In this document: in pieces, positions 9,001 to 64,000 of the stretch | How positions within the stretch are numbered: the stretch's first letter is position 1 | How the letters are laid out: every line of letters starts with the position of its first letter | Assembly: GCF_041381155.1 (NCBI RefSeq) | Contig: NC_091137.1 | Span: 13,697,765-13,761,764, forward strand | Direction of reading: 5' to 3' | Length of the DNA stretch: 64,000 bases | Origin: Argopecten irradians | Lineage: Eukaryota > Mollusca > Bivalvia > Pectinida > Pectinidae | Made by a program: the position numbers and the translations under genes | The notes under the pieces: generated by a model | The model's input: the letters and a program-made list of their open reading frames with translations, nothing else | What the model was told of the DNA's origin: nothing | Databases searched by the model: none

Positions 9001-9785
9001 TACCACACCAGACTATTTACCGACTTCCACCAGTGGTAGGTATTGTTCGATAACTCACACCTTACACTACCACACCAGGTTATTTACCGACTTCCACCAG
9101 TGGTAGGTATTGTTCGATAACTCACACCTTACACTACCACACCAGGCTATTTACCGACTTCCACCAGTGGTAGGTATTGTTCGATAACTCACACCTTACA
9201 CTACCACACCAGGCTATTTACCGACTTCCACCAGTGGTAGGTATTGTTCGATAACTCACACCTTACACTACCACACCAGGCTATTTACCGACTTCCACCA
9301 GTGGTAGGGTATTGTTCGATAACTCACACCTTACACTACCACACCAGACTATTTACCGACTTCCAACAGTGGTAGGTATTGTTCGATAACTCACACCTTA
9401 CACTACCACACCAAGCTATTTACCGACTGTCCACCAGATGGGTAGGTATTGTTCGATAACTCATTTGCCACATTATGCACACTTACCAACACAGGCTTAT
9501 TTATCGACTTCCACTCCAGTGGTAGGTATTGTTCGATAACTCACACCTTAACACTACAACACCGGTTATTTACCGACTTCCACCAGTGGTAGGGTATTGG
9601 TTCGATAATCTATCACCTTACAATACCACACCATAGGGCTACCCGATAACTATAGACTTGCCAGCCAGTGGTAGTATTGATAACAGTAACCTCATATTGA
9701 CCTAAAACATCCCAGGCTATTTACTGACTTCCACCAAGAGAACCGTATGAAAAGTCGATAAATACCTTACAATACAACACCAGGC
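1..9785. repeat. 67-bp satellite array (about 145 copies)
   Basis: Head-to-tail 67-bp monomers fill the window from its first base. Each monomer runs from CTACCACACCAGG through CCACCAGTGGTAGG to TTCGATAACTCACACC. Copies are nearly identical. Recurrent variants are TTACCGAC versus TTACTGAC, CTACC versus ATACC, and ACACC versus AACACC. Scattered 1-4 bp indels occur (for example near 1758, 6330 and 7200). From about 9420 the units decay, and the last recognisable piece ends at about 9785, followed by an A-run. Because 67 is not a multiple of three, no long reading frame persists. The array probably lies in the last intron of the gene ending at 10150, but no exon is visible to the left, so this is inferred. 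Confidence 0.97.
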
Positions 9786-25950: not shown

Positions 25951-26285
25951 TTTAATTTGTATGCGATGTATATAGTAGCTATGGTAATATAATTATTCTC
26001 TTCAAAGAAGATTTGTATATATAAAAAAAAAAAAATACTTATGGAATTATTTCCATTCCAAATCTTTTATATTTTGAATCAGCAATGCATGCCACGTCTT
26101 TAACCTTACGACTACCGCTGTCGCTCAGAATGAACATAATTGCTTGGACTTTTAAAACGAAATTTTATCCTTTACCTTCATTCTGTATTTTTATCATGTC
26201 CCCTTATTCCATATAATGATGAAAGATGAACAACTACATTTATGTTAAATGCAATAGTTTGTGCTTCCTTGTCTTTCAGATAAAG

Positions 26286-27563
26286 ATGAATAATGCTACC
26301 GCAGGTATAACAGACACGACATACAGCGGAACCCGTGAGCGGAATACGTACATGCTGATTGGCTTCTCGTTCATGAGCTTGCTTATGATAGGAATATTTC
26401 TGGGTTTTGTTCATAGAAAGTGTAGACAATCAACGACAAGTGCTAAACAGTGGTGTCTATCGTGTTGTACCCGTGACCCAGATAACAGGTGTCCATCTGT
26501 ATCACGCACAGAGGAGGTAACTGGCACGGAAAATAACACCGCGCAAGTCAAACCGGAACCGGAACATCTATATGAAAATCTTGCGTTTACAGACGACGAT
26601 GGGAAAATAAAAAAGGAAGTTGTTGTCAAAGAAAAAAGTGTAAATTTAAAAAGAGAAATGCAGCAATGTTCGGGATTTTGTGATACCGAAGATGATTCGG
26701 GGATATCAGATGTTTGTACAAGTCCTCGATGTTACGAAAGTCATTCTTCGATAGATACACGATGTTTTGCCTACGACAATCGTCCTGGCGTCCATGTATA
26801 TTACAACGAGGGCGTTGAATACGATATCGTGCCAAAAGGAATTATACGTGTTCTAATGCCAGAGAATCTTGACACCGAATACCAAAATCGAAGGCGAAAA
26901 AAACCTGTTCATGTATATGAAAATATCGATAAAGATAAACATACATATGTTAATGTGACACAGGAACGAAACCAGTCTCCAGTGCAATCTCAGTATCAAC
27001 AACAAAACCAACAACAGCAACGTTATATACAAAAACACCAACAAAAACAACGACTTGGACGTGACGTGGTTACACGTGAAAATAGCTTTCATAAACAACG
27101 TCAAAAAGTTGGTACAGTTTATCCAGTGTATGACATGGATCCAAATTACGAGAATTTAAAGCCAGAGAAAAGGTTGGAACATCTCCATCCGGAAACGGAA
27201 ACAGTTTATTATGTGAATGAACACAGTACTGACCGGATGTTAGCAGCACTTAGGGACAGTTTTCGTCATTCACAGCGGAAATGGCAGACTAATCTGTTAC
27301 AGGAAAACTTGGCTTCTCATGACAATGCCATTGAAGGGAGCAGGCTAGAAAGAGGCTCTCCCTATAAAATACGTCAGTCACGTGGTTTCTACAGAACGCC
27401 GTCAGGAAGACGACACGCGAGTTCCCATAAAAGGTACCACAGTTCACCAGCAGAGTTCACTCACCGTTCGCCCAATCAAGGGAGTGAACAGGAATCGCGT
27501 TTTGTGACGCAATACGTTAAAGCTGCTGACGGTACGCTACGTGCTATTACGTTACACGTTTGA
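26286..27563 (+). CDS. Single-pass transmembrane protein with eight YxN motifs (adaptor-like)
   Basis: A 425-aa frame is read from ATG 26286, chosen because a strong acceptor (TTCCTTGTCTTTCAG) ends at 26279. The frame is open further back to 26226, but that part is probably intron. Residues 1-21 form a short outside segment with an NAT sequon at N3. Residues 22-42 are a hydrophobic transmembrane helix, followed by HRKCR and the Cys cluster CLSCC (57-61), plausible palmitoylation sites. The tail of about 380 residues is hydrophilic, with a Gln-rich patch (234-255), Ser/Arg-rich C-terminus and Tyr-x-Asn at Y96, Y163, Y172, Y199, Y211, Y221, Y288 and Y309. YxN is the consensus bound by GRB2-type SH2 domains when phosphorylated. 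The layout resembles vertebrate transmembrane adaptors such as LAT or NTAL without visible homology. Upstream exons could exist. AATAAA lies at 27828. Confidence 0.8.
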   Translation: MNNATAGITDTTYSGTRERNTYMLIGFSFMSLLMIGIFLGFVHRKCRQSTTSAKQWCLSCCTRDPDNRCPSVSRTEEVTGTENNTAQVKPEPEHLYENLAFTDDDGKIKKEVVVKEKSVNLKREMQQCSGFCDTEDDSGISDVCTSPRCYESHSSIDTRCFAYDNRPGVHVYYNEGVEYDIVPKGIIRVLMPENLDTEYQNRRRKKPVHVYENIDKDKHTYVNVTQERNQSPVQSQYQQQNQQQQRYIQKHQQKQRLGRDVVTRENSFHKQRQKVGTVYPVYDMDPNYENLKPEKRLEHLHPETETVYYVNEHSTDRMLAALRDSFRHSQRKWQTNLLQENLASHDNAIEGSRLERGSPYKIRQSRGFYRTPSGRRHASSHKRYHSSPAEFTHRSPNQGSEQESRFVTQYVKAADGTLRAITLHV

Positions 27564-39307: not shown

Positions 39308-42300
39308 ATGAGACGCAACGAAAAGGGAATTTTCGGAATGAAAAAGGACCCGAAGAATCTGATGCTGTTTTCATTCCAAGTGAGAGAAGGTGAAGAATGG
39401 CCATCTAGTGCCATGTGTCGAGTGTGAGTATTAAGTTATACTACTTACATGGTTATTTTAGAAAAAAACATATATTGCCTTTGATCATTGAATTGTTTAT
39501 GAAGAAATTGATTGTTTAATTACTAGGTACAGTATTAGTGTTGGGATAAAAGGGAAGCAATTCATATAAGTCATATAAATACATACTGTGCAGTAAAGGT
39601 TATCTCCCTTGTGACTCATACAAGGGTTTACTGAATACAATAATGCAATGTGCAGATGTTTTTATTATCTTTGGATGTAAATGTGCAGGTGTTGATTTTT
39701 TTTATTGTCAGATACAAGTTCCTGCTGTCAAAACTCTTGTGGAGAAGTGTGGCAAAAACCTCAAGCAGCTCAATGTTGGTGGCAATAATCTTACAGGATT
39801 CAACAATGTATTGATAGCACTCAAGGTATAGTACAAATACACTTGTCTACACAACTTCATTATCAACACACCATATTTGACTGTTATAGTAACAGGACTA
39901 GTCAATTTGTAAACTGATTGACACCATATGATGTGCCTAATGCCGTGCTTACCCTTATAAATTTGTGCATGGTTACAGCATAAATACAGCATAATGATGT
40001 GATAAAGAGCAAAATATCACTAGTGAAATTAGGGCTGCCGCGATACGGCAGAAGCGTACCACGATATATTGCGATACACAACAACTGTATTGTGATATGT
40101 ATTGCAATATTTTGACCTTAACATATGTGTTGTCTATTTTGTATATATTCCATAATAAAAAACACCCATTACATTATACAAACATACAGTGCTGTGTTAT
40201 GTAGTTTTACATCGATTTGAACCATGTTGTTGAGTAACAAAAATGTTCAAATGTGTTCTTGTTTTAAAAAAATACGAGTCTGTTTGTGAAAACGATAGGC
40301 TAACTGTTTACAGACGATCGTAACCTAATAATGCAATAACTAAACATGATAGTGTCTGCAAATATTTACACTTTTGAACCTAAATGATGAACAAATTTAC
40401 GTACAATTGTCCTGGCAAAATAAGCTTACGATCGTGATTAAACTTCAAAGGGCTGACCGGCTTGCAGTGTTGTTTTGACACGTGTAGGAAATCGAAAATG
40501 GCGGCGGACGATGAAGCCTGAAAAAGCTGGCAAAATCCCTGCAGCCATGTATTCACCGGGCCTTAAATGTGTTTAGAGAATTAGATATTCCGGTATTGTT
40601 GATTGATGGAGCGAATCAGCTTGATAATATTCAGAAACTAGCCTAATGTCATATTTGTTTATATTCAACGTCATGCAAATGTTTGAATCATTTGAACATT
40701 ATACACGTTAGTTACAAACATTTGACCGACATCTGAATCGAATGAAAACGAAAGGGATACCCACATGGCTTCATATTAGCCTATCGGAAAGGAAAACAAA
40801 TACAACTTGCTGGTTTTGTTTTAATGACAGGACGTTTTAATTATATCAAATTAATGAAATTATGATACTAAGAAAATATATCGTAAAAACCGGTACAGGT
40901 AAACTGTATCGCGGTACAATATTTTTTGGTGGTGTATTGCAATACCCCAATATACCGGTGAACCGCGGCAGCCCTAAGTGAAATATTCTTCAACAAGTAT
41001 TGTATTTACATACTGTCTTTAATCTATTTTGGTGAACTGTACCGTTTTTTCCAGAAATGCCCAAATCTCCAGCTATTAGATGTATCCAATGTGAGATTTT
41101 CTTCTGATTTCATGGCATTTGATATAGAGAAATTTCAGCATGCCTGCCCCAAAATGAGAGTACTTCGACTGGCAAACTCTAAATTTAGGGCTCCAGAAGC
41201 ATCAAAGAGAATACAGGTAAGTTATGTCATTTAATATGGTTTTTTTTTCCTTCAAGATAGATTGATTGTTTGGAATGATTTTAAAAATTTTAATTTGAAT
41301 TTTTTTGTCTGAATTATTAAATACAAGGTATGTGAACAGCATAGCAGGAAGAATTTTAAGTGTGTTCTGTAAAATGTAAAGAATAATACTTGTTACAGAA
41401 TGAGTCACCTGGCTTCCCCAGTGTTTTAGTGGTGTTCTGTGTAATAAAATGAATATTATATAATCACCAGTTACAGAATGAGTCACCTGGCTTCCCTGGT
41501 GTTTTAGTAGCGTTCTGTGTAATAAAACAAATATTATATAATTACCTGTTACAGAATGAGTCACCTGGCTTCCCCAGTGTTTTAGTGGTGTTCTGTGTAA
41601 TAAAATGAATATTATATAACCACCTGTTACAGAATGAGTCACCTGGCTTCCCTGCCTTTAGTAGTGTACTGTGTAATGTAAGGAATATTACCTGTTACAG
41701 AATGAGTCACCTGGCTTCCTTGGCTTTAAGTAGTGTTCTGTAACAAGTAATAAAACGAATATTATATAATTACCTGTTACAGAATGAGTCACCTGGCTTC
41801 CCTGGCTTTAAGTAGTGTTCTGTGTAATGTAAGGAATATTACCTGTTACAGAATGAGTCACCTGGCTTCCCTGGCTTTTAGTAATGTTCTGTGTAATGAA
41901 ACGAATATTATATAATTACCTGTTACAGAATGAGTCACCTGGCTTCCGTGGCATTTTAGTAGTGTTCTGTAACAGGTAATAAAACGAATATTATATAATT
42001 ACCTGTTACAGAATGAGTCACCTGGCTTTCCTGGCTTTAAGTAGTGTTCTGTGTAATGTAAGGAATATTACCTGTTACAGAATGAGTCACCTGGCTTCCC
42101 TGGCTTTAAGTAGTGTTCTGTGTAATGTAAGGAATATTACCTGTTATATAATGAGTCACCTGGCTTCCCTGGCTTTAAGTAGTGTTCTGTGTAATGTAAG
42201 AATATTCCTGTTACAGAATGAGTCACCTGGCTTCCCTGGCTTTAAGTAGTGTTCTGTGTAATGTAAGGAATATTACCTGTTACAGAATGAGTCACCTGGC

Positions 42301-45300
42301 TTCCCTGGCTTTAAGTAGTGTTCTGTGTAATGTAAGGAATATTACCTGTTACAGAATGAGTCACCTGGCTTCCCTGGCTTTAAGTAGTGTTCTGTGTAAT
42401 GTAAGGAATATTACCTGTTACAGAATGAGTCACCTGGCTTCCCTGGCTTTTAGTAATGTTCTGTGTAATGTAAGGAATATTACCTGTTACAGAATGAGTC
42501 ACCTGGCTTCCCTGGCTTTTAGTAGTGTTCTGTGTAATGTAAGGAATATTACCTGTTACAGAATGAGTCACCTGGCTTCCCTGGCTTTAAGTAATGTTCT
42601 GTGTAATGTAAGGAATATTACCTGTTACAGAATGAGTCACCTGGCTTCCCTGGCTTTAAGTAGTGTTCTGTGTAATGTAAGGAATATTACCTGTTACAGA
42701 ATGAGTCACCTGGCTTCCTTGGCTTTAAGTAGTGTTCTGTGTAATGTAAGGAATATTACCTGTTACAGAATGAGTCACCTGGCTTCCTTGGCTTTAAGTA
42801 GTGTTCTGTGTAATGTAAGGAATATTACCTGTTACAGAATGAGTCACCTGGCTTCCCTGGCTTTAAGTAGTGTTCTGTGTAATGTAAGGAATATTACCTG
42901 TTACAGAATGAGTCACCTGGCTTCCCTGGCTTTAAGTAGTGTTCTGTGTAATGTAAGGATTATTACCTGTTACAGAATGAGTCACCTGGCTTCCCTGGCT
43001 TTAAGTAGTGTTCTGTGTAATGTAAGGAATATTACCTGTTACAGAATGAGTCACCTGGCTTCCCTGCCTTTAAGTAGTGTTCTGTGTAATGTAAGGAATA
43101 TTAATAATTACCTGTTACAGAATGAGTCACCTGGCTTCCCTGGCTTTAAGTAGTGTTCTGTGTAATGTAAGGAATATTACCTGTTACAGAATGAGTCACC
43201 TGGCTTCCTTGGCTTTAAGTAGTGTTCTGTGTAATGTAAGGAATATTACCTGTTACAGAATGAGTCACCTGGCTTCCTTGGCTTTAAGTAGTGTTCTGTG
43301 TAATGTAAGGAATATTACCTGTTACAGAATGAGTCACCTGACTTCCTTGGCTTTAAGTAGTGTTCTGTGTAATGTAAGGAATATTACCTGTTACAGAATG
43401 AGTCACCTGGCTTCCTTGGCTTTAAGTAGTGTTCTGTGTAATGTAAGGAATATCACCTGTTACAGAATGAGTCACCTGGCTTCCTTGGCTTTAAGTAGTG
43501 TTCTGTGTAATGTAAGGATTATTACCTGTTACAGAATGAGTCACCTGGCTTCCTGGCTTTAAGTAGTGTTCTGTGTAATGTAAGGAATATTACCTGTTAC
43601 AGAATGAGTCACCTGGCTTCCCTGGCTTTTAGTAATGTTTCTGTGTAATGTAAGGAATATTACCTGTTACAGAATGAGTCACCTGGCTTCCCTGGCTTTT
43701 AGTAATGTTCTGTGTAATGTAAGGAATATTACCTGTTACAGAATGAGTCACATGGCTTCCCTGGCTTTAAGTAGTGTTCTGTGTAATGTAAGGAATATTA
43801 CCTGTTACAGAATGAGTCACCTGGCTTCCCTGGCTTTTAGTAGTGTTCTGTGTAATGTAAGGAATATTACCTGTTACAGAATGAGTCACCTGGCTTCCCT
43901 GGCTTTAAGTAGTGTTCTGTGTAATGTAAGGAATATTACCTGTTACAGAATGAGTCACCTGGCTTCCCTGGCTTTAAGTAGTGTTCTGTGTAATGTAAGG
44001 AATATTACCTGTTACAGAATGAGTCACCTGGCTTCCCTGGCTTTTAGTAGTGTTCTGTGTAATGTAAGGAATATTACCTGTTACAGAATGAGTCACCTGG
44101 CTTCCTTGGCTTTAAGTAGTGTTCTGTGTAATGTAAGGAATATTACCTGTTACAGAATGAGTCACCTGGCTTCCCTGGCTTTAAGTAGTGTTCTGTGTAA
44201 TGTAAGGAATATTACCTGTTACAGAATGAGTCACCTGGCTTCCTGGCTTTAAGTAGTGTTCTGTGTAATGTAAGGAATATTATTACCTGTTACAGAATGA
44301 GTCACCTGGCTTCCCTGGCTTTAAGTAGTGTTCTGTGTAATGTAAGGAATATTACCTGTTACAGAATGAGTCACCTGGCTTCCCTGGCTTTTAGTAGTGT
44401 TCTGTGTAATGTAAGGAATATTACCTGTTACAGAATGAGTCACCTGGCTTCCCTGGCTTTAAGTAGTGTTCTGTGTAATGTAAGGAATATTACCTGTTAC
44501 AGAATGAGTCACCTGGCTTCCCTGGCTTTAAGTAGTGTTCTGTGTAATGTAAGGAATATTACCTGTTACAGAATGAGTCACCTGGCTTCCCTGGCTTTAA
44601 GTAGTGTTCTGTGTAATGTAAGGAATATTACCTGTTACAGAATGAGTCACCTGGCTTCCCTGGCTTTAAGTAGTGTTCTGTGTAATGTAAGGAATATTAC
44701 CTGTTACAGAATGAGTCACCTGGCTTCCCTGGCTTTAAGTAGTGTTCTGTGTAATGTAAGGAATATTACCTGTTACAGAATGAGTCACCTGGCTTCCCTT
44801 GGCTTTTAAGTAGTGTTCTGTGTAATGTAAGGAATATACCTGTTACAGAATGAGTCACCTGGCTTCCCTGGCTTTAAGTAGTGTTCTGTGTAATGTAAGG
44901 GATATTACCTGTTACAGAATGAGTCACCTGGCTTCCCTGGCTTTTAGTAGTGTTCTGTGTAATGTAAGGAATATTACCTGTTACAGAATGAGTCACCTGG
45001 CTTCCCTGGCTTTTAGTAGTGTTCTGTGTAATGTAAGGAATATTACCTGTTACAGAATGAGTCACCTGGCTTCCCTGGCTTTTAGTAGTGTTCTGTGTAA
45101 TGTAAGGAATATTACCTGTTACAGAATGAGTCACCTGGCTTCCCTGGCTTTTAGTAGTGTTCTGTGTAATGTAAGGAATATCACCTGTTACAGAATGAGT
45201 CACCTGGCTTCCCTGGCTTTTAGTAGTGTTCTGTGTAATGTAAGGAATATTACCTGTTACAGAAATGAGTCACCTGGCTTCCCTGGCTTTAAGTAGTGTT

Positions 45301-48300
45301 CTGTGTAATGTAAGGAATATCACCTGTTACAGAATGAGTCACATGGCTTCCCTGGCTTTTAGTAGTGTTCTGTGTAATGTAAGGAATATTACCTGTTACA
45401 GAATGAGTCACCTGGCTTCCCTGGCTTTAAGTAGTGTTCTGTGTAATGTAAGGAATATTACCTGTTACAGAATGAGTCACCTGGCTTCCCTGGCTTTTAG
45501 TAGTGTTCTGTGTAATGTAAGGAATATTACCTGTTACAGAATGAGTCACCTGGCTTCCTTGGCTTTAAGTAGTGTTCTGTGTAATGTAAGGAATATCACC
45601 TGTTACAGAATGAGTCACCTGGCTTCCTTGGCTTTAAGTAGTGTTCTGTGTAATGTAAGGAATATCACCTGTTACAGAATGAGTCACCTGGCTTCCTTGG
45701 CTTTAAGTAGTGTTCTGTGTAATGTAAGGAATATTACCTGTTACAGAATGAGTCACCTGGCTTCCTTGGCTTTAAGTAGTGTTCTGTGTAATGTAAGGAA
45801 TATTACCTGTTACAGAATGAGTCACCTGGCTTCCCTGGCTTTTAAGTAGTGTTCTGTGTAATGTAAGGAAATATCACCTGTTACAGAATGAGTCACCTGG
45901 CTTCCCTGGCTTTTAAGTAGTGTTCTGTGTAATGTAAGGAATATCACCTGTTACAGAATGAGTCACCTGGCTTCCCTGGCTTTTAGTAGTGTTCTGTGTA
46001 ATGTAAGGAATATTACCTGTTACAGAATGAGTCACCTGGCTTCCCTGGCTTTTAGTAGTGTTCTGTGTAATGTAAGGAATATTACCTGTTACAGAATGAG
46101 TCACCTGGCTTCCCTGGCTTTTAGTAGTGATTTCTGTGTAATGTAAGGAATATCACCTGTTACAGAATGAGTCACCTGGCTTCCCTGGCTTTTAGTAGTG
46201 TTCTGTGTAATGTAAGGAATATCACCTGTTACAGAATGAGTCACCTGGCTTCCCTGGCTTTTAGTAGTGTTCTGTGTAATGTAAGGAATATCACCTGTTA
46301 CAGAATGAGTCACCTGGCTTCCCTGGCTTTTAGTAGTGTTCTGTGTAATGTAAGGAATATCACCTGTTACAGAATGAGTCACCTGGCTTCCCTGGCTTTA
46401 GTAGTGTTCTGTGTAATGTAAGGAATATCACCTGTTACAGAATGAGTCACCTGGCTTCCCTGCCTTTAGTAGTGTTCTGTGTAATGTAAGGAATATCACC
46501 TGTTACAGAATGAGTCACCTGGCTTCCCTGGCTTTTAGTAGTGTTCTGTGTAATGTAAGGAATATCACCTGTTACAGAATGAGTCACCTGGCTTCCCTGG
46601 CTTTAGTAGTGTTCTGTGTAATGTAAGGAATATAACCTGTTACAGAATGAGTCACCTGGCTTCCCTGGATTTAAGTAGTGTTCTGTGTAATGTAAGGAAT
46701 ATCACCTGTTACAGAATGAGTCACCTGGCTTCCCTGGCTTTAGTAGTGTTCTGTGTAATGTAAGGAATATTACCTGTTACAGAATGAGTCACCTGGCTTC
46801 CCTGGCTTTAAGTAGTGTTCTGTGTAATGTAAGGAATATAACCTGTTACAGAATGAGTCACCTGGCTTCCCTGGCTTTTAGTAGTGTTCTGTGTAATGTA
46901 AGGAATATCACCTGTTACAGAATGAGTCACCTGGCTTCCCTGGCTTTAGTAGTGTTCTGTGTAATGTAAGGAATATCACCTGTTACAGAATGAGTCACCT
47001 GGCTTCCCTGGCTTTTAGTAGTGTTCTGTGTAATGTAAGGAATATTACCTGTTACAGAATGAGTCACCTGGCTTCCCTGGCTTTTAGTAGTGTTCTGTGT
47101 AATGTAAGGAATATCACCTGTTACAGAATGAGTCACCTGGCTTCCCTGGCTTTTAGTAGTGTTCTGTGTAATGTAAGGAATATCACCTGTTACAGAATGA
47201 GTCACCTGGCTTCCCTGGCTTTAGTAGTGTTCTGTGTAATGTAAGGAATATCACCTGTTACAGAATGAGTCACCTGGCTTCCCTGGCTTTTAGTAGTGTT
47301 CTGTGTAATGTAAGGAATATCACCTGTTACAGAATGAGTCACCTGGCTTCCCTGGCTTTAGTAGTGTTCTGTGTAATGTAAGGAATATCACCTGTTACAG
47401 AATGAGTCACCTGGCTTCCCTGGCTTTAGTAGTGTTCTGTGTAATGTAAGGAATATCACCTGTTACAGAATGAGTCACCTGGCTTCCCTGGCTTTTAGTA
47501 GTGTTCTGTGTAATGTAAGGAATATTACCTGTTACAGAATGAGTCACCTGGCTTCCCTGGCTTTTAGTAGTGTTCTGTGTAATGTAAGGAATATAACCTG
47601 TTACAGAATGAGTCACCTGGCTTCCTTGGCTTTTAGTAGTGTTCTGTATAATGTAAGGAATATTACCTGTTACAGAATGAGTCACCTGGCTTCCCTGGCT
47701 TTAAGTAGTGTTCTGTGTAATGTAAGGAATATTACCTGTTACAGAATGAGTCACCTGGCTTCCCTGGCTTTTAGTAGTGTTCTGTGTAATGTAAGGAATA
47801 TTACCTGTTACAGAATGAGTCACCTGGCTTCCCTGGCTTTAAGTAGTGTTCTGTGTAATGTAAGGAATATTACCTGTTACAGAATGAGTCACCTGGCTTC
47901 CCTGGCTTTTAGTAATGTTCTGTGTAATGTAAGGAATATTACCTGTTACAGAATGAGTCACCTGGCTTCCCTGGCTTTTAGTAGTGTTCTGTGTAATGTA
48001 AGGAATATTACCTGTTACAGAATGAGTCACCTGGCTTCCCTGGCTTTTAGTAGTGTTCTGTGTAATGTAAGGAATATTACCTGTTACAGAATGAGTCACC
48101 TGGCTTCCCTGGCTTTAAGTAGTGTTCTGTGTAATGTAAGGAATATTACCTGTTACAGAATGAGTCACCTGGCTTCCCTGGCTTTAAGTAGTGTTCTGTG
48201 TAATGTAAGGAATATTACCTGTTACAGAATGAGTCACCTGGCTTCCCTGGCTTTAAGTAGTGTTCTGTGTAATGTAAGGAATATTACCTGTTACAGAATG

Positions 48301-51300
48301 AGTCACCTGGCTTCCCTGGCTTTTAGTAATGTTCTGTGTAATGTAAGGAATATTACCTGTTACAGAATGAGTCACCTGGCTTCCCTGGCTTTTAAGTAGT
48401 GTTCTGTGTAATGTAAGGAATATTACCTGTTACAGAATGAGTCACCTGGCTTCCCTGGCTTTAAGTAGTGTTCTGTGTAATGTAAGGAATATTACCTGTT
48501 ACAGAATGAGTCACCTGGCTTCCCTGGCTTTTAGTAGTGTTCTGTGTAATGTAAGGAATATTACCTGTTACAGAATGAGTCACCTGGCTTCCCTGGCTTT
48601 AAGTAGTGTTCTGTGTAATGTAAGGAATATTACCTGTTACAGAATGAGTCACCTGGCTTCCCTGGCTTTAAGTAGTGTTCTGTGTAATGTAAGAATATAC
48701 TACTGTTACAGAATGAGTCACCTGGCTTCCCTGGCTTTAAGTAGTGTTCTGTGTAATGTAAGGAATATTACCTGTTACAGAATGAGTCACCTGGCTTCCC
48801 TGGCTTTTAGTAGTGTTCTGTGTAATGTAAGGAATATTACCTGTTACAGAATGAGTCACCTGGCTTCCCTGGCTTTAAGTAGTGTTCTGTGTAATGTAAG
48901 GAATATTACCTGTTACAGAATGAGTCACCTGGCTTCCTTGGCTTTAAGTAGTGTTCTGTGTAATGTAAGGAATATCACCTGTTACAGAATGAGTCACCTA
49001 GCTTCCTTGGCTTTAAGTAGTGTTCTGTGTAATGTAAGGATTATTACCTGTTACAGAATGAGTCACCTGGCTTCCCTGGCTTTTAGTAATGTTCTGTGTA
49101 ATGTAAGGAATATTACCTGTTACAGAATGAGTCACCTGGCTTCCCTGGCTTTTAGTAGTGTTCTGTGTAATGTAAGGAATATATACCTGTTACAGAATGA
49201 GTCACCTGGCTTCCCTGGCTTTAGTAATGTTCTGTGTAATGTAAGGAATATCACCTGTTACAGAATGAGTCACATGGCTTCCCTGGCTTTAAGTAGTGTT
49301 CTGTGTAATGTAAGGAATATTACCTGTTACAGAATGAGTCACCTGGCTTCCCTGGCTTTAAGTAGTGTTCTGTGTAATGTAAGGAATATTACCTGTTACA
49401 GAATGAGTCACCTGGCTTCCTTGGCTTTAAGTAGTGTTCTGTGTAATGTAAGGAATATTACCTGTTACAGAATGAGTCACCTGGCTTCCCTGGCTTTTAG
49501 TAATGTTCTGTGTAATGTAAGGAATATTACCTGTTACAGAATGAGTCACCTGGCTTCCCTGGCTTTAGTAGTGTTCTGTGTAATGTAAGGAATATCACCT
49601 GTTACAGAATGAGTCACCTGGCTTCCCTGGCTTTAAGTAGTGTTCTGTGTAATGTAAGGAATATCACCTGTTACAGAATGAGTCACCTGGCTTCCCTGGC
49701 TTTTAGTAGTGTTCTGTGTAATGTAAGGAATATTACCTGTTACAGAATGAGTCACCTGGCTTCCCTGGCTTTTAGTAGTGTTCTGTGTAATGTAAGGAAT
49801 ATTACCTGTTACAGAATGAGTCACCTGGCTTCCCTGGCTTTTAGTAATGTTCTGTGTAATGTAAGGAATATTACCTGTTACAGAATGAGTCACCTGGCTT
49901 CCCTGGCTTTTAGTAGTGTTCTGTGTAATGTAAGGAATATCACCTGTTACAGAATGAGTCACCTGGCTTCCCTGGCTTTAGTAGTGTTCTGTGTAATGTA
50001 AGGAATATCACCTGTTACAGAATGAGTCACCTGGCTTCCCTGGCTTTTAGTAGTGTTCTGTGTAATGTAAGGAATATCACCTGTTACAGAATGAGTCACC
50101 TGGCTTCCCTGGCTTCCCTTTTAGTAGTGTTCTGTGTAATATAAGGAATATCACCTGTTACAGAATGAGTCACCTGGCTTCCCTGGCTTTTAGTAGTGTT
50201 CTGTGTAATGTAAGGAATATTACCTGTTACAGAATGAGTCACCTGGCTTCCCTGGCTTTTAGTAGTGTTCTGTGTAATGTAAGGAATATCACCTGTTACA
50301 GAATGAGTCACCTGGCTTCCCTGGCTTTTAGTAGTGTTCTGTGTAATGTAAGGAATATTACCTGTTACAGAATGAGTCACCTGGCTTCCCTGGCTTTAAG
50401 TAGTGTTCTGTGTAATGTAAGGAATATTACCTGTTACAGAATGAGTCACCTGGCTTCCCTGGCTTTAAGTAGTGTTCTGTGTAATGTAAGGAATATTACC
50501 TGTTACAGAATGAGTCACTGGCTTCCTTGGCTTTAAGTAGTGTTCTGTGTAATGTAAGGAATATTACCTGTTACAGAATGAGTCACCTGGCTTCCTTGGC
50601 TTTAAGTAGTGTTCTGTGTAATGTAAGGAATATTACCTGTTACAGAATGAGTCACCTGGCTTCCCTGGCTTTAAGTAGTGTTCTGTGTAATGTAAGGAAT
50701 ATTACCTGTTACAGAATGAGTCACCTGGCTTCCTTGGCTTTAAGTAGTGTTCTGTGTAATGTAAGGGATATTACCTGTTACAGAATGAGTCACCTGGCTT
50801 CCTTGGCTTTAAGTAGTGTTCTGTGTAATGTAAGGAATTTCACCTGTTACAGAATGAGTCACCTGGCTTCCCTGGCTTTAAGTAGTGTTCTGTGTAATGT
50901 AAGGAATATCACCTGTTACAGAATGAGTCACCTGGCTTCCCTGGCTTTAAGTAGTGTTCTGTGTAATGTAAGGAATATCACCTGTTACAGAATGAGTCAC
51001 CTGGCTTCCCTGGCTTTAAGTAGTGTTCTGTGTAATGTAAGTAATATTACCTGTTACAGAATGAGTCACCTGGCTTCCCTGCCTTTTAGTAGTGTTCTGT
51101 GTAATGTAAGGAATATCACCTGTTACAGAATGAGTCACCTGGCTTCCCTGGCTTTAGTAGTGTTCTGTGTAATGTAAGGAATATCACCTGTTACAGAATG
51201 AGTCACCTGGCTTCCCTGCCTTTTAGTAGTGTTCTGTGTAATGTAAGGAATATCACCTGTTACAGAATGAGTCACCTGGCTTCCCTGGCTTTTAGTAGTG

Positions 51301-54300
51301 TTCTGTGTAATGTAAGGAATATCACCTGTTACAGAATGAGTCACCTGGCTTCCCTGGCTTTAAGTAGTGTTCTGTGTAATGTAAGGAATATTACCTGTTA
51401 CAGAATGAGTCACCTGGCTTCCCTGGCTTTAAGTAGTGTTCTGTGTAATGTAAGGAATATCACCTGTTACAGAATGAGTCACCTGGCTTCCCTGGCTTTT
51501 AGTAGTGTTCTGTGTAATGTAAGGAATATCACCTGTTACAGAATGAGTCACCTGGCTTCCCTGGCTTTAAGTAGTGTTCTGTGTAATGTAAGGAATATAA
51601 CCTGTTACAGAATGAGTCACCTGGCTTCCCTGGCTTTTAGTAGTGTTCTGTGTAATGTAAGGAATATTACCTGTTACAGAATGAGTCACCTGGCTTCCCT
51701 GGCTTTTAGTAGTGTTCTGTGTAATGTAAGGAATATCACCTGTTACAGAATGAGTCACCTGGCTTCCCTGGCTTTAAGTAGTGTTCTGTGTAATGTAAGG
51801 AATATCACCTGTTACAGAATGAGTCACCTGGCTTCCCTGGCTTTTAGTAGTGTTCTGTGTAATGTAAGGAATATCACCTGTTACAGAATGAGTCACCTGG
51901 CTTCCCTGGCTTTAAGTAGTGTTCTGTTAATGTAAGGAATATCACCTGTTACAGAATGAGTCACCTGGCTTCCCTGGCTTTAAGTAGTGTTCTGTGTAAT
52001 GTAAGGAATATCACCTGTTACAGAATGAGTCACCTGGCTTCCCTGGCTTTAAGTAGTGTTCTGTGTAATGTAAGGAATATCACCTGTTACAGAATGAGTC
52101 ACCTGGCTTCCCTGGCTTTAAGTAGTGTTCTGTGTAATGTAAGGAATATTACCTGTTACAGAATGAGTCACCTGGCTTCCCTGGCTTTAAGTAGTGTTCT
52201 GTGTAATGTAATGTAAGAATATACCTGTTACAGAATGAGTCACCTGGCTTCCCTGGCTTTAAGTAGTGTTCTGTGTAATGTAAGGAATATTACCTGTTAC
52301 AGAATGAGTCACCTGGCTTCCCTGGCTTTAGTAGTGTTCTGTGTAATGTAAGAATATTACCTGTTACAGAATGAGTCACCTGGCTTCCCTGGCTTTAGTA
52401 GTGTTCTGTGTAATGTAAGGAATATTACCTGTTACAGAATGAGTCACCTGGCTTCCCTGGCTTTAAGTAGTGTTCTGTGTAATGTAAGGAATATTACCTG
52501 TTACAGAATGAGTCACCTGGCTTCCCTGGCTTTAAGTAGTGTTCTGTGTAATGTAAGGAATATCACCTGTTTCAGAATGAGTCACCTGGCTTCCCTGGCT
52601 CTGAGTAGTTTTCTGTGTAATGTAAGGAATATTACTTGTTACAGAATGAGTCGCCTGGCTTCCCTGAGTTGGAGGAGCTAAGCCTGGCTGTACACACAGC
52701 CAAAGTCGGAGCTGGACTTGCCATACATGACAACTTTTATCAAAGGTATGTACACTGTTCTATTTTGTTGGAAAGTGGCTGTTGCTGATTGGATGTCTAT
52801 AATATATTGTTATTTTAGTTCATTACCCCCCCCCCCCCCCACCCCCCTCCCCTCGAAAATCCGTTAAAGACTGCTGCAGTCTTTGAATTAGAATAGTTCA
52901 AATGTGACTTCAGAGGTGAATGAATTACATATATAAATTCTACATAACAATGAATTGTCACTCAATTTTAGGACACCTGAGACAAAGTCTCAAGTGACCT
53001 ATTCTGATCGCCATTGTCCGTCGTCGTGCATCGTCCGTCATATGGCGATAAACAATTTACTTTTTCAACTTCTTCTCCAAAACTACTGAACCAAAATTGT
53101 TGAAATTTTGTAGAAACCTTCCATAGCTAAAGGTCAACCAAATTTGTGAATTATATGGTCCCAGCCCCCCAGGGGACTGAGGGGTGGGGCCAAAAGGGGT
53201 CAAATAGGCTCTAAAACTTAAAAAATCTTCTCCTGAAATACCAAAAAATGATAGAATCAAATACTCTTCATATATTGAAAGGTCTTGAGGTCCATAACAA
53301 AAGTTGTGAATTATATGACCCTTGGGTCTTGCGTTCCCCCCTGGGGAGAGGGTCAAGTTTATTATAGTTTATATAGGGAAAAGACATTTTTGAGCATTAT
53401 TTGGTCATTTGTAATAAGAAATAAGTCAAAAGTGGTCAGAATTATCAGTATGAGATGGCCATTGAATCCTATTAGCAATTTTTCTTCGACTGACCCCCAG
53501 GGGCCTGAGGGGTGAGGCCAACAGGGGTCAAATAGGCTAAAACCTCAAAAATCTTCTTCTGAAATTCCAGAAATGGCAGAATCAAATACTCTTCATAGAT
53601 TGAAGGGGCTGGGTTAGAATATTATAAGCCTGAGAAAGCATTTTAACATATCCATATTGGTCCTGGCCAACCCCCAGGGGCCAGAGGGGTGGAGCCAAAA
53701 GGGGTCAAATTGGCTGTCGACCCCCAGGGGCCAGAGGGTGGGGCCAAAAGGGGTCAAATTGGCTAACTTTTCTTTCTTCAGAATTCACAGATTCGTCTTA
53801 AGGCCCTTTACAAAATGTGTGAATTTCATGGCCCTGGGATCTCAGATTTTCCCCTGTAGAGGGAGTCAAATTTACTATAGTTTATATAGGAAAACACATT
53901 TATGAACATTATTTGCTTAGTTTTAATAGGAAATGAGTCAAACTGGGTTGGAATTATTAGCCTGAAATTGAATTTTAACACCATATCCATTTTGGTCCTG
54001 GCTGTCCCACAGGGACCAGAGGGGGTGGGGGTAGGGGGGGGGACAAAATGGGTCAAAATGGCTAAAATTTCAAAAATCTTCTTAAGAATTCACAGGTTTG
54101 ATGGAACCAAATAATCTTCATAGATTAAAAAGTGAAATTTATAAAATCGCTGACACTGACAGACTTCTAGTTTGGTTTTGTTGTTTAACATTGGCAAAGT
54201 AAATTGGAATTTAAAGCATAAGGTTTGGTAACATAATACAATAACTATCAAAAAGAAAAACAAAAAAGAAAATTCCTAATACAAAGGTTCAACTTTAAAG

Positions 54301-57300
54301 TTAATTCTAATTGGTAAATACTTTTTACAGATTTAAACCAACTTTGTCATGCTCTTTATGTATCAGCACTCAGGTGAGCGTCAAGGCCTCTTGAGCCTCT
54401 TGTATTATAATGACTACTAAAAATCTCTTTAATGATACATGTATTTATTTCATTTATGAATAGCTAATTTCTCGTATTTTTCACCTAGTATTATGATGCT
54501 TTTCTATAAATGTGAATTTCATTGTGATGAAATATTGCTCCACAGAATTTTGAAGTCCTCCCTTGGTCTGCGGCTGTTGGACCTGAGGGGACTGAGCCAG
54601 ATCACCACTCTAGGACTGGCATCCCTCCCTGTGACTGACCTTGAGTCACTCTATCTGTCAATGACCTCTCTGGCCTCACGCAACAATAATGTGGATGTTG
54701 TTCTCCACAAGGTATGTACATTCCACAGCTTTTTCTCACTTAATTGGAATGTAGCTTTTTGCCTTATCGTGTGATGAAAGTTGGTAAAATTGAAAAGAAA
54801 ATCTCAAGGAGTGTACTGTATTTGTAAAGGACCTTGGCTACAATTTGAAATGATTTATATCCATTTACAGCTCCTAAAAGGTACTAGAAAAAGTCCTGCA
54901 TTCAAACGTTACTTTTCACAGAGAAATCTTTCCAGGTCAGAGTCATTTTTGAGGTGTATATAATGTGATAAATGAAGATTATTGACATGATTTATGTTGT
55001 AGTGGCGTCACAGTTTGAAAGTAGTGGACCTGTCCTGGAACACCTTCCAGGATAATGTACTGGACGCAGCGTTCGAGGTGTATGTAGGTCTCCCCACCAC
55101 TACGAAACACAAACTACGCTGGATCAACTTCGCTGGCACTGCAGTGACATTAACCACTGTCAAGTAAGTTCAACATTGGTGTTCTTTCGTTTTGTCATCT
55201 ATAAGACTGTTGAAACATTGGTGTTCTTTCGTTTTGTCATCTATAAGATTATTAAAACATTGGTGTTCTTTCGTTTTGTCATCTATAAGACTGTTGAAAC
55301 ATTGGTGTCCTTTCGTTTTGTCATCTACCGGTATAAGACTGTTAAAACATTGGTGTCCTTTCGTTTTGTCATCTATTAGACTGTTAAAACCTTGGTGTCC
55401 TTTTCGTTTTGACATCTACAAGACTATTAAAACATTGGTGTCCTTTCGTTTTGTCATCTATGAGACTATTAAAATATTTGTGTCCTCTATAAGACTATTA
55501 AAACATAGGTGTCCTCCAAAATAATTGCAACAGATTTTTTTCTTTGTTTTTCATACAGATCTGACTTTGTTTTATACAAGAAAAAAAAGTCGTCACAAAT
55601 AAAAATATGGGAAAGTGTTTTTCTTGACCCCCAAAAAATCAGAAAAATAGGGATATTTGCATAATTTGCAAACTTTGAAGCCAAATATAAACTTACATGG
55701 TTATCATGAGATACTAGCTATAGAAAATTAATGTATGACAAGAACGTTATAAGGACAGCACAGATTGCCAAAAACATAGGTTGAAATCAACACAGGGAAA
55801 AAGTATAACAGCATGAAAATTGCATAATTATGTCCTTGCAACAGCCAAATATGCTTTTGTTGGATTGTTAAGATAAAAAATTGTTATTATCAACAATACC
55901 ATTGATACTCATTTTGGTGGAATCTTTTTAAATAAAACTTGTTGATTAAAGGCTTTAAAAGTGAAACTTTTACTATCACTACCTGAGATGATATGGTTGC
56001 TCAAAGTTGGTCTTTTGGCCTTTTCCAAGGACATTTTGAAGTCCAAATTGAATTATACGTCTTTTTCATTCAAGAATTATTCAGTAAGTACCATCTCAAG
56101 TGTTTAGATAGTTATTAATTCAGATTCTATGTAGGCTATACTCACCTAAAAGAGAATACTATATCAAGATATCCCCAAATATAAAAGATGTCAGGTCGAT
56201 CAAATCCTCATTTAGTGCCAATTTGACTAAACTTCTCTAATTGGCTAAGTCCTTAAGTTGAAATGTCAAAATGTGAATATCTATTTTGTGACTAATCAGA
56301 TTGCAAAATCCTTTGGCAGATATTACCACCATAATGGAGCGCTCTTTATAAAGTGAGATTGAAGTTTCTTCTTGATCAAATATTTGCATAGGTCAGTTTT
56401 TCATTTTTCCATTATGTAACTGGATGGGGATTATAAAATTTTCAATGAGATAAAGGAATAAAATAAAAGTTCAAGTTCAATTTTATAGCTGAAAATCATC
56501 ACAGTTCTGATTTATTTACTGGCAAAATTTTATGACAAATGAATAAAGCATATTCGAAAAATTAAGATTTTTGTATTGCAGATTTATGGATATTTTGGTA
56601 TTCAGCCAAATTAACGTGATAGGAAGTTTTTACTACCAAATAAGATGTGCATATTTATACCGTTTTTACAACAAATGATAAAAATAACAAGTACAAAATA
56701 TACAAAAAAGGATATAACATATTTGGAAGCATTTGCTTTTTTATTTTCCGAAATATTAACTACCAAAATGGGTGTTTTGCCAAAAATCTAAGTATAAAAA
56801 CACTTCAAATTGGCACGATCAGTCAACTTGACATGTTAATATTTAGGTTTTTCTAGCTAATGTATTATCGATCATGCATTAATATCAAAGAAAATGTAAT
56901 TCTTTAAGGCATAAAACATAAACTGATATAGTTCAGGGTAAGATTTTATAAATGTTTGCATCTAAATAAGAACAAAAACGGTAATGCTAGCTAAATTCAA
57001 AAGGTTTTGAGCCGCTTTCATCCCGATTTCATATTTCAAGTATCGCAAAAATAGCAGATATTGTACTTTAAAAGTGGTCAAAAGCGTAATTTCTATATAT
57101 TTTCTTATTTTTTCGGGTATTGAAAAAACGACTTTCCGAATACGGGTATATGCTTTTTGGCGACTTTTTTCATGGTAAAATACTAAGATCCTCCAACCCA
57201 AAAAGCAGAAAACAAATTCTGTTGCAATTATTTGGAGGTTAGGCCTCTATTTTTCGTATTTTTACTGGACTAATAAGACTATTAAGACATTGGTGTCCTC

Positions 57301-57513
57301 TATAAGACTATTAAAACATTGGTGTTCTTTCGTTTTGACATCAGATTGATCCTGGATAACTGTTCTGAGTTGGAGTACATTAATCTGTCCTCGTGTCGGG
57401 GACTTCCCAGAGGCATGAAGAGGGAATATAATCAAAGACAGCTCAGCCAGCTTAAAAAGGAAGTTCGAATGGAGACACAATCAGACACTGGAGATTCTTC
57501 AGCTAGCGACTGA
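39308..57513 (+). CDS. FBXL6: FBXL6-like F-box/leucine-rich-repeat protein (LRR part; F-box not seen)
   Basis: Exons: 39308-39379 (tentative), 39712-39825, 41055-41216, 52645-52745, 54546-54711, 55003-55163, 57345-57513. All have GT/AG and consistent phases (0,0,0,2,0,2), giving 314 aa. LRR segments are plain: NLKQLNVGGNNLTG, NLQLLDVSNVRF, KMRVLRLANSKF, ELEELSLAV, GLRLLDLRGLSQITTLGLAS, WRHSLKVVDLSWNTF, KLRWINFAGTAVT, ELEYINLSSCRGLPRGMKR. The order, and the SCRGLPRGMKR ending, fit my knowledge of FBXL6, an SCF ubiquitin-ligase substrate receptor. Human FBXL6 is about 540 aa with an N-terminal F-box, so the 5' part is missing or lies in unrecognised exons. The first exon is uncertain: an alternative donor at 39424 would be out of phase. 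The gene is remarkable for repeat-filled introns. AATAAA lies at 58224. Confidence 0.72.
40030..40976. mobile_element. hAT-type non-autonomous DNA transposon, 947 bp
   Basis: Terminal inverted repeats TAGGGCTGCCGCG and CGCGGCAGCCCTA bound the element, flanked by a perfect 8-bp target duplication AGTGAAAT (40022-40029 and 40977-40984). An 8-bp duplication and TAGGG-type ends are hallmarks of hAT transposons. Subterminal GCGATACACAAC and TATTGCAATACC words are also partly inverted. No transposase frame is present. It sits in intron 2 of the FBXL6-like gene. Confidence 0.88.
41351..52644. repeat. 69-bp intronic array made of copies of the gene's own 3' splice site
   Basis: About 160 units fill intron 3 of the FBXL6-like gene. 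Each reads ATTACCTGTTACAG, then AATGAGTCACCTGGCTTCCC, TGGCTTTAAGTAG, and TGTTCTGTGTAATGTAAGGA. The true acceptor (ATTACTTGTTACAG at 52631-52644) and first 22 nt of the exon (52645-52666) match the unit, after which exon and unit diverge. The earliest units (41398 to about 42000) are older variants of 77-82 bp with TAATAAAATGAATATTATAT inserted. Common variants are CTTTAAG versus CTTTTAG and ATTACC versus ATCACC. Since 69 is divisible by three, long spurious frames appear on both strands. Confidence 0.96.
52970..54405. mobile_element. Dispersed repeat with internal GGGGCCAAAAGGGGTCAA blocks
   Basis: Starts GGACACCTGAGACAAAG and ends CTCAGGTGAGCGTCAAGGCC, with ACACCTGAG and CTCAGGTGA as short inverted ends. 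Inside, about five diverged blocks contain CCCCCAGGGG..GAGGGGTGG and GGCCAAAAGGGGTCAAAT, plus repeated TTCATAGATTGAA-like words. I recognise this composition from bivalve genomes as a common non-coding element; class is uncertain. It fills most of intron 4 of the FBXL6-like gene. A C-run lies just upstream at 52827. Confidence 0.6.
55172..55511. repeat. 42-bp minisatellite at the 5' end of intron 6 of the FBXL6-like gene
   Basis: About eight units of ACATTGGTGTTCTTTCGTTT then TGTCATCTATAAGACTGTT begin 8 bp after the donor GTAAGT at 55164. The same motif recurs at 57271-57344, the last copy (TTCTTTCGTTTTGACATCAG) supplying the pyrimidine tract and acceptor of the final exon. Units are thus related to the intron's own 3' splice site. 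Open frames across the array on both strands are artefacts. Confidence 0.9.
55513..57238. mobile_element. Non-autonomous DNA transposon inserted in the 42-bp array
   Basis: CCTCCAAAATAATTGCAACA at the left end matches the reverse complement of TGTTGCAATTATTTGGAGG at the right end; the inverted ends extend to about 30 bp. The 1.7-kb AT-rich interior has no credible transposase. The element separates the array at 55172-55511 from its continuation at 57271, so it inserted into a pre-existing array. No clear target duplication was found. Confidence 0.75.
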
Positions 57514-61191: not shown

Positions 61192-62870
61192 TCATATACG
61201 AGTCTTTCTTCTATGTGTTTTTGTCTTCTTTATTCTTCTTGACCTTTTGGTCTTGTTCTTGTTTGACTTCCTGAATTTTTTTTTCGGTTTTTTGGATTTT
61301 CTCTTTTTGTTCATTCTTTGACGATTATTGTCACCACTTTGTCCACGCCGTTTACGCTTTCTTCTGATCTCTCTTTGTTTATGATTTCGCTTAGAACTTA
61401 TTTTCACTATGTCTGAATTCTTTTGTGCGGTTTCCCCGATCTCTGAAATAATTGTAAAAGAATGTCATCTAAGTGAAACAAAGAAAGACATGAACAATAT
61501 AGATATCATGGTATTGATAAAGAAACTTCAATTTAATGTTCAAAGGCATGATATAGTATTTGATATACAGCGAGATTTTCTGCGTTAGTAACATTGTATT
61601 ACGTTTCCATATTTTATGTTGATGGGAGTGGAGATGAGGTTTCCTTTCATTCTTGTGATAACATGTGTTTCTCTGCTACACGATGAAGCCACAATGAAAT
61701 GTACTACTGATATCAATGTGCACGTTTTACTGAAAACGAATTACCGAATAGCGGTTCTATTTCGCTGGGGTTTTATTTTCACTATATTCGCGGTTCCACC
61801 GAAATCCGTGAATTTTAAACACCAGCGAAATACATAGCACAACACTGAAAAGTATCGTTATCATTACATAAAACACAATTTCTAGTTGCCATGGGTCGAG
61901 TAACATCGGCGATAGTGGTGTCCGTATGCCCAGTTTCCCATGTTTTAGCCATGTATCGAAAGACAATATTATTGTGCATGTACCTGTAATTGCCTGTCGA
62001 CTGAGTAAAAACATACAAAAAATATTTCTGTAAGTAATTCTCCTGGTCAACTATTACATTGGGTATCGTATCCTTTAATGATATAGACAATTGAAGAGGC
62101 ACGTATTTCTACTTACTTTCAAAGTATATGATGAACCCTTTGCCTGTTTTTGATCTGCCTGATACAGTAAGATAAATTTCCACGACTCCTTCTGACAAAG
62201 TGGCGTTAAAGCGTTTTGTATTCCCTTTAACAACTAGTGTCTGTGTGTTGACCTTAGTGTGAATGATCCTAAATGTATCACGATCCTCGTCAACTTCAGC
62301 GGCCTCTAGTCTTAATAGTAGTTGTTTCCCTTCGCCTATCTGTAAAATGTAAGTAGTTAAAATTTACGTAGTAGACAAAATGACTTCCAGTGACAAAAAA
62401 CAACAAAAACAACATCCAGCTTAAATAAGAACATGATTAGCATGGGACATTTCCTTTCTATTTCAGTGAGTATTCCATTGTTTATCTCCACTTGATGTTG
62501 CAATTCCCTAAGCTACACGGGCTAGTACGGCAAACATAGTTTTGTTACACTTGAGTAGTAGATAGAAGACTAACGAATTCTGATCATGCGATTTCTGGAT
62601 TACCAATAATAATATGGCGATGTTTGTTTACCTTTATGGTGAATGACCATAGTGATTTATACGATAATAATTCTATGCTTTTTTATCAACTGTCAGGTAA
62701 ACATATTGTTCATTGTTTCAAATCTTCGCCCTGATCTACCTTGATGACTTTTCTGCAGTCCACCGATTCTGCACCGTAGTCCCAAGGGTAGATGTTGTGA
62801 CTCCGAATGATACCGACCTCTTTGTCCACCAGCTCTGGTTTGTAACGACTGCACATATTTATAACGTTGT
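61192..62870 (-). CDS. 3' part of a CUB-domain protein with an extremely basic C-terminal tail
   Basis: Minus-strand exons in reading order: 62870-62740, 62339-62117, 61442-61192. Acceptors TACTATTTTCAG, CATTTTACAG and AATTATTTCAG and donors GTAGAT and GTAAGT give phases 1, 0, 1 that all agree. The first two exons form one CUB domain: MCSRYKPELVDKEVGIIRSH, NIYPWDYG, DCRKVIK, IGEGKQLLLRLEA, then VSGRSKTGKGFIIYFE. The second half of this CUB lacks Cys, so the usual second disulphide is absent; it has an NAT sequon. The last exon is about 83 residues, mostly Lys and Arg (REIRRKRKRRGQSG, KKRKSKKPKKKFRKS), ending THRRKTRI. This could act as a heparan-sulfate or matrix retention tail or a nuclear/nucleolar signal. 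The 5' exons, including any signal peptide, lie right of 62870. Function unknown. Confidence 0.78.
61758..61834. mobile_element. Small foldback MITE in an intron of the minus-strand CUB gene
   Basis: TATTTCGCTGGGGTTTTATT at the left pairs with the reverse complement of AAACACCAGCGAAATA at the right; about 25-bp arms carry a few mismatches around a core that includes TTCGCGGTTCCACCGAAATC. The core resembles TTCGC-rich sequence near 27700-27850. No coding capacity; the open frames crossing it are not credible. Confidence 0.6.
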
Positions 62871-63019
62871 CTGAAAATAGTAATTTTTGAAGCCTGGAAA
62901 TAAAGTGTTCGCATACATTGTTCGACATAATGATGTGAAATAATTTTCACTGGTGCATCAACATTACGTTCTAAACACGGATTTATTAGTGAGACTCATA
63001 TATGTCTTTGGTTTTGGGG

Positions 63020-64000
63020 AATTAAGTAAGATTAGAACTATACGACATTTTTTTAAAAACGAAGACGTGGGAATAAAGTAGAGTAGAACTGTACGACAGT
63101 ATTTAGACACGAAGACGTGGGAATTAAGTAGAGTAGAACTGTAAGACAGTATTTAGACACGAAGACATGGGAATTAAGTAGAGTAGAACTGTAAGACAGT
63201 ATTTAGACACGAAGACGTGGGAATTAAGTAGAGTAGAACTGTAAGACAGTATTTAGACACGAAGACGTGGGAATTAAGTAGAGTAGAACTGTAAGACAGT
63301 ATTTAGACACGAAGACGTGGGAATTAAGTAGAGTAGAACTGTAAGACAGTATTTAGACACGAAGACGTGGAAATTAAGTAGAGTAGAACTGTAAGACAGT
63401 ATTTAGATACAAAGACGTGGGAATTAAGTAGAGTAGAACTGTAGACAGTATTTAGACACGAAGACGTGGGAATTAAGTAGAGTAGAACTGTAAGACAGTA
63501 TTTAGACACGAAGACGCGGGAATTAAGTAGAGTAGAACTGTAAGACAGTATTTAGACACAAAGACGTGGGAATTAAGTAGAGTAGAACTGTAAGACAGTA
63601 TTTAGACACGAAGACGTGGGAATTAAGTAGAGTAGAACTGTAAGACAGTATTTAGACACGAAGACGTGGGAATTAAGTAGAGTAGAACTGTAAGACAGTA
63701 TTTAGATACAAAGACGTGGGAATTAAGTAGAGTAGAACTGTACGACAGTATTAAGACACGAAGACGTGGGAATTAAGTAGAGTAGAACTGTAAGACAGTA
63801 TTTAGACACGAAGACGTGGGAATTAAGTAGAGTAGAACTGTACGACAGTATTTAGACACGAAGACGTGGGAATTAAGTAGAGTAGAACTGTAAGACAGTA
63901 TTTAGACACGAAGACGTGGGAATTAAGTAGAGTAGAACTGTAAGACAGTATTTAGACACGAAGACGTGGGAATTAAGTAGAGTAGAACTGTACGACAGTA
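63020..64000. repeat. 50-bp tandem array running off the window
   Basis: About 19-20 copies of a 50-bp unit (AGTAGAACTGTAAGACAGTA, then TTTAGACACGAAGACGTGGG, then AATTAAGTAG). Variants include CTGTACGACAG versus CTGTAAGACAG and GATACAAAG versus GACACGAAG. The first unit is degenerate. It lies upstream, in transcription order, of the last visible exon of the minus-strand CUB gene, so it is either intronic or 5' flanking. Confidence 0.95.

Follow-up and report, generated by a model that had tools for sequence, protein, structure and literature searches.

Choice between identical splice sites has so far been studied with constructs that carry two copies of the site. Duplicated beta-globin 3' splice-site constructs reportedly go back to Reed and Maniatis in 1986, and the repeats of human F7 intron 7 come in a handful of copies only. 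Here, we describe a 64,000-nt stretch of the genome of the scallop Argopecten irradians (assembly GCF_041381155.1, contig NC_091137.1, positions 13,697,765 to 13,761,764 of the forward strand; hereafter the window, numbered from its first letter), in which one intron of a homolog of the F-box/LRR-repeat protein 6 gene (FBXL6) carries 163 tandem copies of its own 3' splice site.

Donor-side arrangements are known from human ABCA7 and F7 (here and below, statements and comparisons concerning published systems follow the cited portions of each report). In the variable number tandem repeat (VNTR) of ABCA7 intron 18, the 25-bp units include the exon 18 donor, and the largest allele has about 427 repeats, or 10,678 bp (PMC5954066). 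The donor of the next unit is used at about 2%, giving a frameshift, and this use is unchanged by array length; exon-19 skipping grows with length and amounts to 45% and 29% in two brain regions (PMC5954066). Given such large skipping in brain, an array of this kind can be costly. In F7 intron 7, which contains 37-bp repeats, the most upstream, exon-proximal donor is the only one used in normal condition (PMC6627357). When the beta-globin 3' site was duplicated, with 14, 55 or 205 exon nt following the upstream copy, splicing was exclusively distal and very inefficient; relative to a different duplicated construct, which was strong, double occupancy by U2AF was higher and U2 binding much lower (PMC5389562). 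Human duplicated genes also contain internal tandem repeats, minisatellites that sit at exon-intron boundaries and change splicing (PMC2812944).

The scallop array resembles the ABCA7 VNTR, in which hundreds of copies are possible, in that it adjoins an exon and holds the splice site of that exon, and it is comparable in size to the largest reported ABCA7 allele of 10,678 bp (PMC5954066). It shares with F7 the high homology of the repeats, F7 being again a donor-side case. However, ABCA7 repeats the 5' donor at the downstream side of the exon, whereas the scallop array repeats the 3' acceptor together with 22 nt of coding exon. The copies are contiguous with the exon, include the splice site and are intact, as in ABCA7 and F7, but the repeated site is not the 5' donor, which makes the array a mirror variant of this type and not the same type. 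In the beta-globin constructs, too, a downstream acceptor competes with one further upstream that is followed by a short stub of exon, but these constructs are artificial, limited to two copies and were studied in vitro. The repeats described in PMC2812944 average about four 30-bp copies and concern new introns, unlike the long decoy series of the scallop. Overall, the scallop array is an acceptor-side variant of the splice-site-bearing minisatellites found at exon boundaries. The arrangement pointed out in the first-pass annotation of this DNA stands, but since donor-side arrangements are known it is less unprecedented than the heading of that annotation makes it look. No description of an acceptor-side array of this size was recognised in searches of the open-licence literature, which is no proof of absence.

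The intron 3' end and exon start are repeated in tandem

Tandem Repeats Finder (TRF) called 157.5 copies of a 69-bp unit at 41769-52666, with 96% matches. Using TGTTACAGAATGAGTC as the anchor and tolerating at most 3 mismatches gave 162 copies; one extra copy at 45255, with a 1-nt insertion, brought the total to 163. The array is located inside the intron running from the donor at 41217 to the exon at 52645-52745, and its parts are the following.

41352..52666, + strand: tandem array (TRF and anchor count), 163 copies of a 69-bp unit made of 47 nt of intron 3' end and 22 nt of exon start
41352..42033, + strand: left-edge copies u1-u9; six of the nine carry an 8-nt insertion and measure 77-83 nt, and u7 equals the consensus
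52598..52666, + strand: last copy, the real acceptor, with AG at 52643-52644; 5 differences from the array consensus

This count agrees with the first-pass annotation, which had placed about 160 tandem copies at 41351..52666. Its description of the unit, as TTACAG plus 22 nt of exon start, the true site being the last copy, is seen at 52598-52666. The consensus of the 162 aligned copies reads GCTTTAAGTAGTGTTCTGTGTAATGTAAGGAATATTACCTGTTACAG followed by AATGAGTCACCTGGCTTCCCTG, the acceptor lying between the two. AG is kept in 162 of the 163 copies and TTACAG in 161; with the real site excluded, AG is intact in 161/162 upstream copies. The array gives way to the real exon where its last copy ends. 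Over the 22 exon nt, the real exon and the array consensus match at 21 positions, with a single difference (TCG vs TCA).

Six exons of the surrounding gene, joined at introns with GT/AG ends, form one open frame of 290 aa with a stop codon. The best match of this frame is F-box/LRR-repeat protein 6 of Mizuhopecten yessoensis, with 89% identity across the whole query, and by this similarity the gene is an FBXL6 homolog. Both the open six-exon frame and the M. yessoensis protein argue for the use of exon 52645. The coding features are as follows.

39308..39406, + strand: FBXL6 N-terminal coding stretch (MRRNEKGIFGMKKDPKN...EEWPS)
39712..39825, + strand: FBXL6 LRR coding exon
41055..41216, + strand: coding exon upstream of the array, with a strong donor CAG/GTAAGT at 41217 (U1 duplex -12.6 kcal/mol)
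52645..52745, + strand: coding exon NESPGFPELEELSLAVHTAKVGAGLAIHDNFYQ(R), 101 nt, with donor CAAAG/GTATGT at 52746
54546..54711, + strand: FBXL6 coding exon
55003..55163, + strand: FBXL6 coding exon, with donor at 55164
57345..57513, + strand: FBXL6 last coding exon, with stop codon

Origin and turnover of the array

The exon downstream of the array starts with NESPGFPELEELSLA. In an alignment that took in 21 of 26 homolog matches, SPGFP is present in 15/21 sequences, and NESPGFPELEELSL is the majority FBXL6 sequence at this place. As the exon start encodes this majority sequence, the array came from the exon. Judged by this alignment, the array is derived from the intron-exon junction of the gene itself, and the exon start is older than the array that was built from it. 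Chance similarity, or an unrelated dispersed satellite, was considered and rejected: 21/22 exon-side bases match the conserved coding start, and other matches to the unit in the 64-kb window are weak (best E 0.75).

The mean number of differences from the consensus is 7.4 in the first ten copies, 0.7-2.4 in later blocks of ten and 3.5 in the last two. At unit position 39, T is found only in u1 and in the last copy, and C in the other 160 aligned copies. A total of 56 distinct unit sequences occur among 162. Lag-1 neighbours are of the same unit type with a frequency of 0.51, against an expected 0.30 when the first 8 copies and the last one are excluded, and identical neighbours number 23/161, against 12.4 expected; no higher-order period was seen up to lag 39. 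A homogenised interior with diverged ends is the trace that would be expected if the junction was duplicated in tandem and the copies then turned over locally. We propose that 47 intron bases and 22 exon bases were tandemly duplicated and that the array then grew to about 163 copies, probably through mostly local events.

Decoys share the core signals of the real acceptor

In an ungapped comparison over positions -24 to +3, a single base separates 87 of the 162 decoys from the real site, two bases separate 56 and three or more separate 19, in keeping with the difference of about one base that had been noted at first. The same account had ascribed a pyrimidine tract to the unit, and there we differ, as little of one is present. 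At positions -20 to -4 (17 positions), the real site has 8 pyrimidines, and so do 141/162 decoys; over -50 to -4, the pyrimidine content of the real site is reached by 74/162 decoys. The tract is weak in the real site and in nearly all decoys. Among the five other acceptors of the gene, that of exon 54546 also has 8 pyrimidines out of 17, and the remaining ones have 9 to 13. About 24 nt upstream of AG, the motif TGTAAT, which we take to be a plausible branch point, is nearly invariant among the aligned copies. Better acceptor signals in the real copy were rejected as an explanation, pyrimidine content failing to separate the real site. Decoys share nearly all core signals, and such signals therefore do not single out the real site. 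The real copy is set apart by its position and its context.

Downstream context and consequences of decoy use

The interpretation given in the first reading of this DNA is upheld in part: that the repeats copy the gene's own 3' splice site, that the real site is the last of them and that core signals are nearly identical is supported, whereas some 160 effective competitors and a choice by exon definition, through downstream sequence, would be presumption. Downstream sequence is no clean discriminator: the array has 150 occurrences of the donor-like AATGTAAGG, and 150 of the 163 acceptors are trailed by it at 45-48 nt. As far as the letters tell, exon-like pairs can arise within the array, about 46 nt long or, when they span two units, 115 nt long, so that exon definition alone gives no clean answer. 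The donors differ in their pairing with U1, the duplex energy being -8.2 kcal/mol for the real exon donor vs -4.8 kcal/mol for the consensus array donor.

Of the 161 decoys with AG, none stays open through the end of the real exon if the remaining array is retained, and in 136/161 the frame of the gene is closed after 9 or 10 codons. Pseudo-exons of 45-47 nt contain a phase-0 stop in 130/147 cases, the donor of the last unit being left out. Tandem alternative exons of the Dscam type were rejected on these counts, with 0/161 decoys open to the real exon and a stop in most pseudo-exons. Recursive splicing at ratchet points was also rejected, AAT following the acceptor in all 162 aligned copies, with no direct GT donor. 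Long open frames in the array are unsurprising because 69 is divisible by 3, and their translation was set aside, a 138-aa repeat-peptide query having no homolog at E 0.001 among 7991 scored candidates. Rfam and tRNA scans of the window found nothing.

Predicted splicing and alternative explanations

We consider it probable that the array is a minisatellite born at the splice junction, in which the exon-proximal copy is used and the decoys, each with its 22-nt exon stub, are passed over. Each copy amounts to a near-complete acceptor, and most also bear a donor-like site, which is weak. Splicing most likely goes to the last copy, which adjoins the complete exon with a stronger donor. Use of a decoy with retention of the array would lead to a stop, mostly within 10 codons, and such transcripts would presumably be removed by nonsense-mediated mRNA decay, an established pathway. 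The likely cost would be slower splicing or some skipping of exon 52645.

Several observations weigh against this reading. The decoys nearly equal the real site in core signals and are transcribed earlier. The donor at 55164, needed by the open frame, pairs with U1 at merely -5.6 kcal/mol, near the -4.8 kcal/mol of the array donor, which makes the donor argument modest. Purine-rich hexamers are not enriched in the real exon (5/96 positions) vs the pseudo-exon (2/41), and enhancer-like purine density was rejected as a discriminator, the real exon and the pseudo-exon being equal in this respect. The non-scallop bivalves Mactra and Magallana lack SPGFP (PGFTNLEELSM and PGFEELTELSL, respectively). 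In addition, homologs have the F-box and the first LRRs between the N-terminal stretch (here 39308-39406) and the LRR exon (39712), which at this locus are just about 300 nt apart. Among the matches listed by tblastn (E up to 10), using as queries the M. yessoensis protein together with P0009, P0012, P0014 and P0017, no convincing match to the F-box part was found in the window. The F-box exons were either lost or dropped in assembly. Because the window yielded none, this gene copy may be truncated, in which case constraint on its splicing may be relaxed.

The possibility that the gene copy has decayed, and that splice choice at the array no longer matters, follows from these last points, and it is further favoured by the first exon, which departs from the homologs after WPS. 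However, the six exons with their GT/AG sites, the open 290-aa frame and the 89% identity to the M. yessoensis protein argue against this, and we regard decay as unlikely.

It is quite unlikely that the array itself is functional, as a length-tunable rheostat in which about 160 acceptors would capture U2AF and feed poison exons, the copy number setting the yield of functional mRNA. The stops met by all 161 AG-bearing decoys are consistent with such a role. In the absence of ATP, a second U2AF35 associated more frequently with a duplicated strong 3' site than with a single one (PMC5389562), and ABCA7 VNTR length is related inversely to expression and positively to exon-19 skipping (PMC5954066). 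However, repeat-unit retention in ABCA7 is constant across VNTR length (PMC5954066), and selection on the scallop array is unsupported. In a rare-variant scan of the 153 copies that remain without the first 8 and the last, the acceptor block at unit positions 41-57 (17/69 positions) holds 3/44 distinct variants and 3/47 rare cells, but this low variation is not robust (distinct-variant scan p 0.059), and purifying selection on the decoy acceptors is not claimed. By cell count, which may be inflated by indel alignment, a 17-nt stretch free of rare variants has a scan p of 0.0002, but it is found at unit positions 3-19, outside the acceptor block.

Silencing of the decoys by RNA structure is improbable to much the same degree. 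A hairpin between TTCTGT(GTAA) and (TTAC)AGAA(T) would hide CAG in the decoys, and downstream sequence would free the last copy. The 45-nt hairpin does fold better than shuffled sequences, with z -2.56 for the consensus (4/200 shuffles as good) and z -3.51 for the leftmost copy (0/200). In a 120-nt window, the accessibility of the real CAG is 0.060 vs a decoy median of 0.008, and 6/162 decoys reach the real value. However, the last copy carries the same hairpin (z -1.95), and in a 240-nt window the difference is nearly gone (0.014 vs 0.011), with 37/162 decoys reaching the real value. Moreover, at both folding lengths the branch-point region of the real copy falls below the decoy median in accessibility (0.296 vs 0.596 in 120 nt; 0.169 vs 0.577 in 240 nt), the acceptor at 57344 of the same gene is closed like the decoys (0.009), and full 69-nt units (z -1.06 and +0.24) as well as the last 455 nt (z -1.31) are unremarkable. 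Structure as the main switch was rejected because it is not robust across folding windows and piece lengths. From these folds, the TTCTGT/ACAGAA hairpin that holds CAG may already have belonged to the ancestral intron end.

Finally, a copy number produced by misassembly is very improbable: long arrays are error-prone in general and other haplotypes may vary in length, but the 56 distinct units follow an irregular order with no higher-order period, and the window contains no N.

Other repeats and reading frames in the window

In the same gene, the intron at 55164-57344 contains seven 42-bp copies, starting at 55172, 8 nt past the donor. A further partial 42-bp copy (27/28 positions) forms the acceptor tract at 57315-57342, which ends right before the AG of the last exon; it is separated from the seven others by about 1.8 kb of other sequence. 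These copies have no AG at the same place and no exon bases, and are therefore not equivalent decoys. Two acceptor regions of this FBXL6 gene thus appear to belong to minisatellites.

A tandem array with a 67-bp unit (about 143 copies, 96%) covers 1-9633, and a 50-bp array extends from 63017 to the window end at 64000. The reverse complement of the latter holds the acceptor-like TGTCTTACAG; a putative minus-strand exon lies downstream of it near 62870, and the array, judged by eye, shows no resemblance to the acceptor of that exon. The arrays at 1-9633, 41352-52666 and 63017-64000 together make up 34% of the window. At 26223-27563, an open frame of 446 aa has a tail rich in tyrosine and a stretch of hydrophobic residues, both noted by eye, and no Pfam match at E 0.1.

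Implications

By analogy with the published systems, the scallop intron should mostly use the acceptor at 52645, while copy -1 would be used at times and the exon would sometimes be skipped. In this one gene, about 160 near-identical acceptors differ mainly in their distance to the exon, so that the effects of proximity, exon context and transcription order can be separated from the junctions found in ordinary RNA data. The array is an acceptor-side mirror of the human ABCA7 VNTR, whose length changes splicing.

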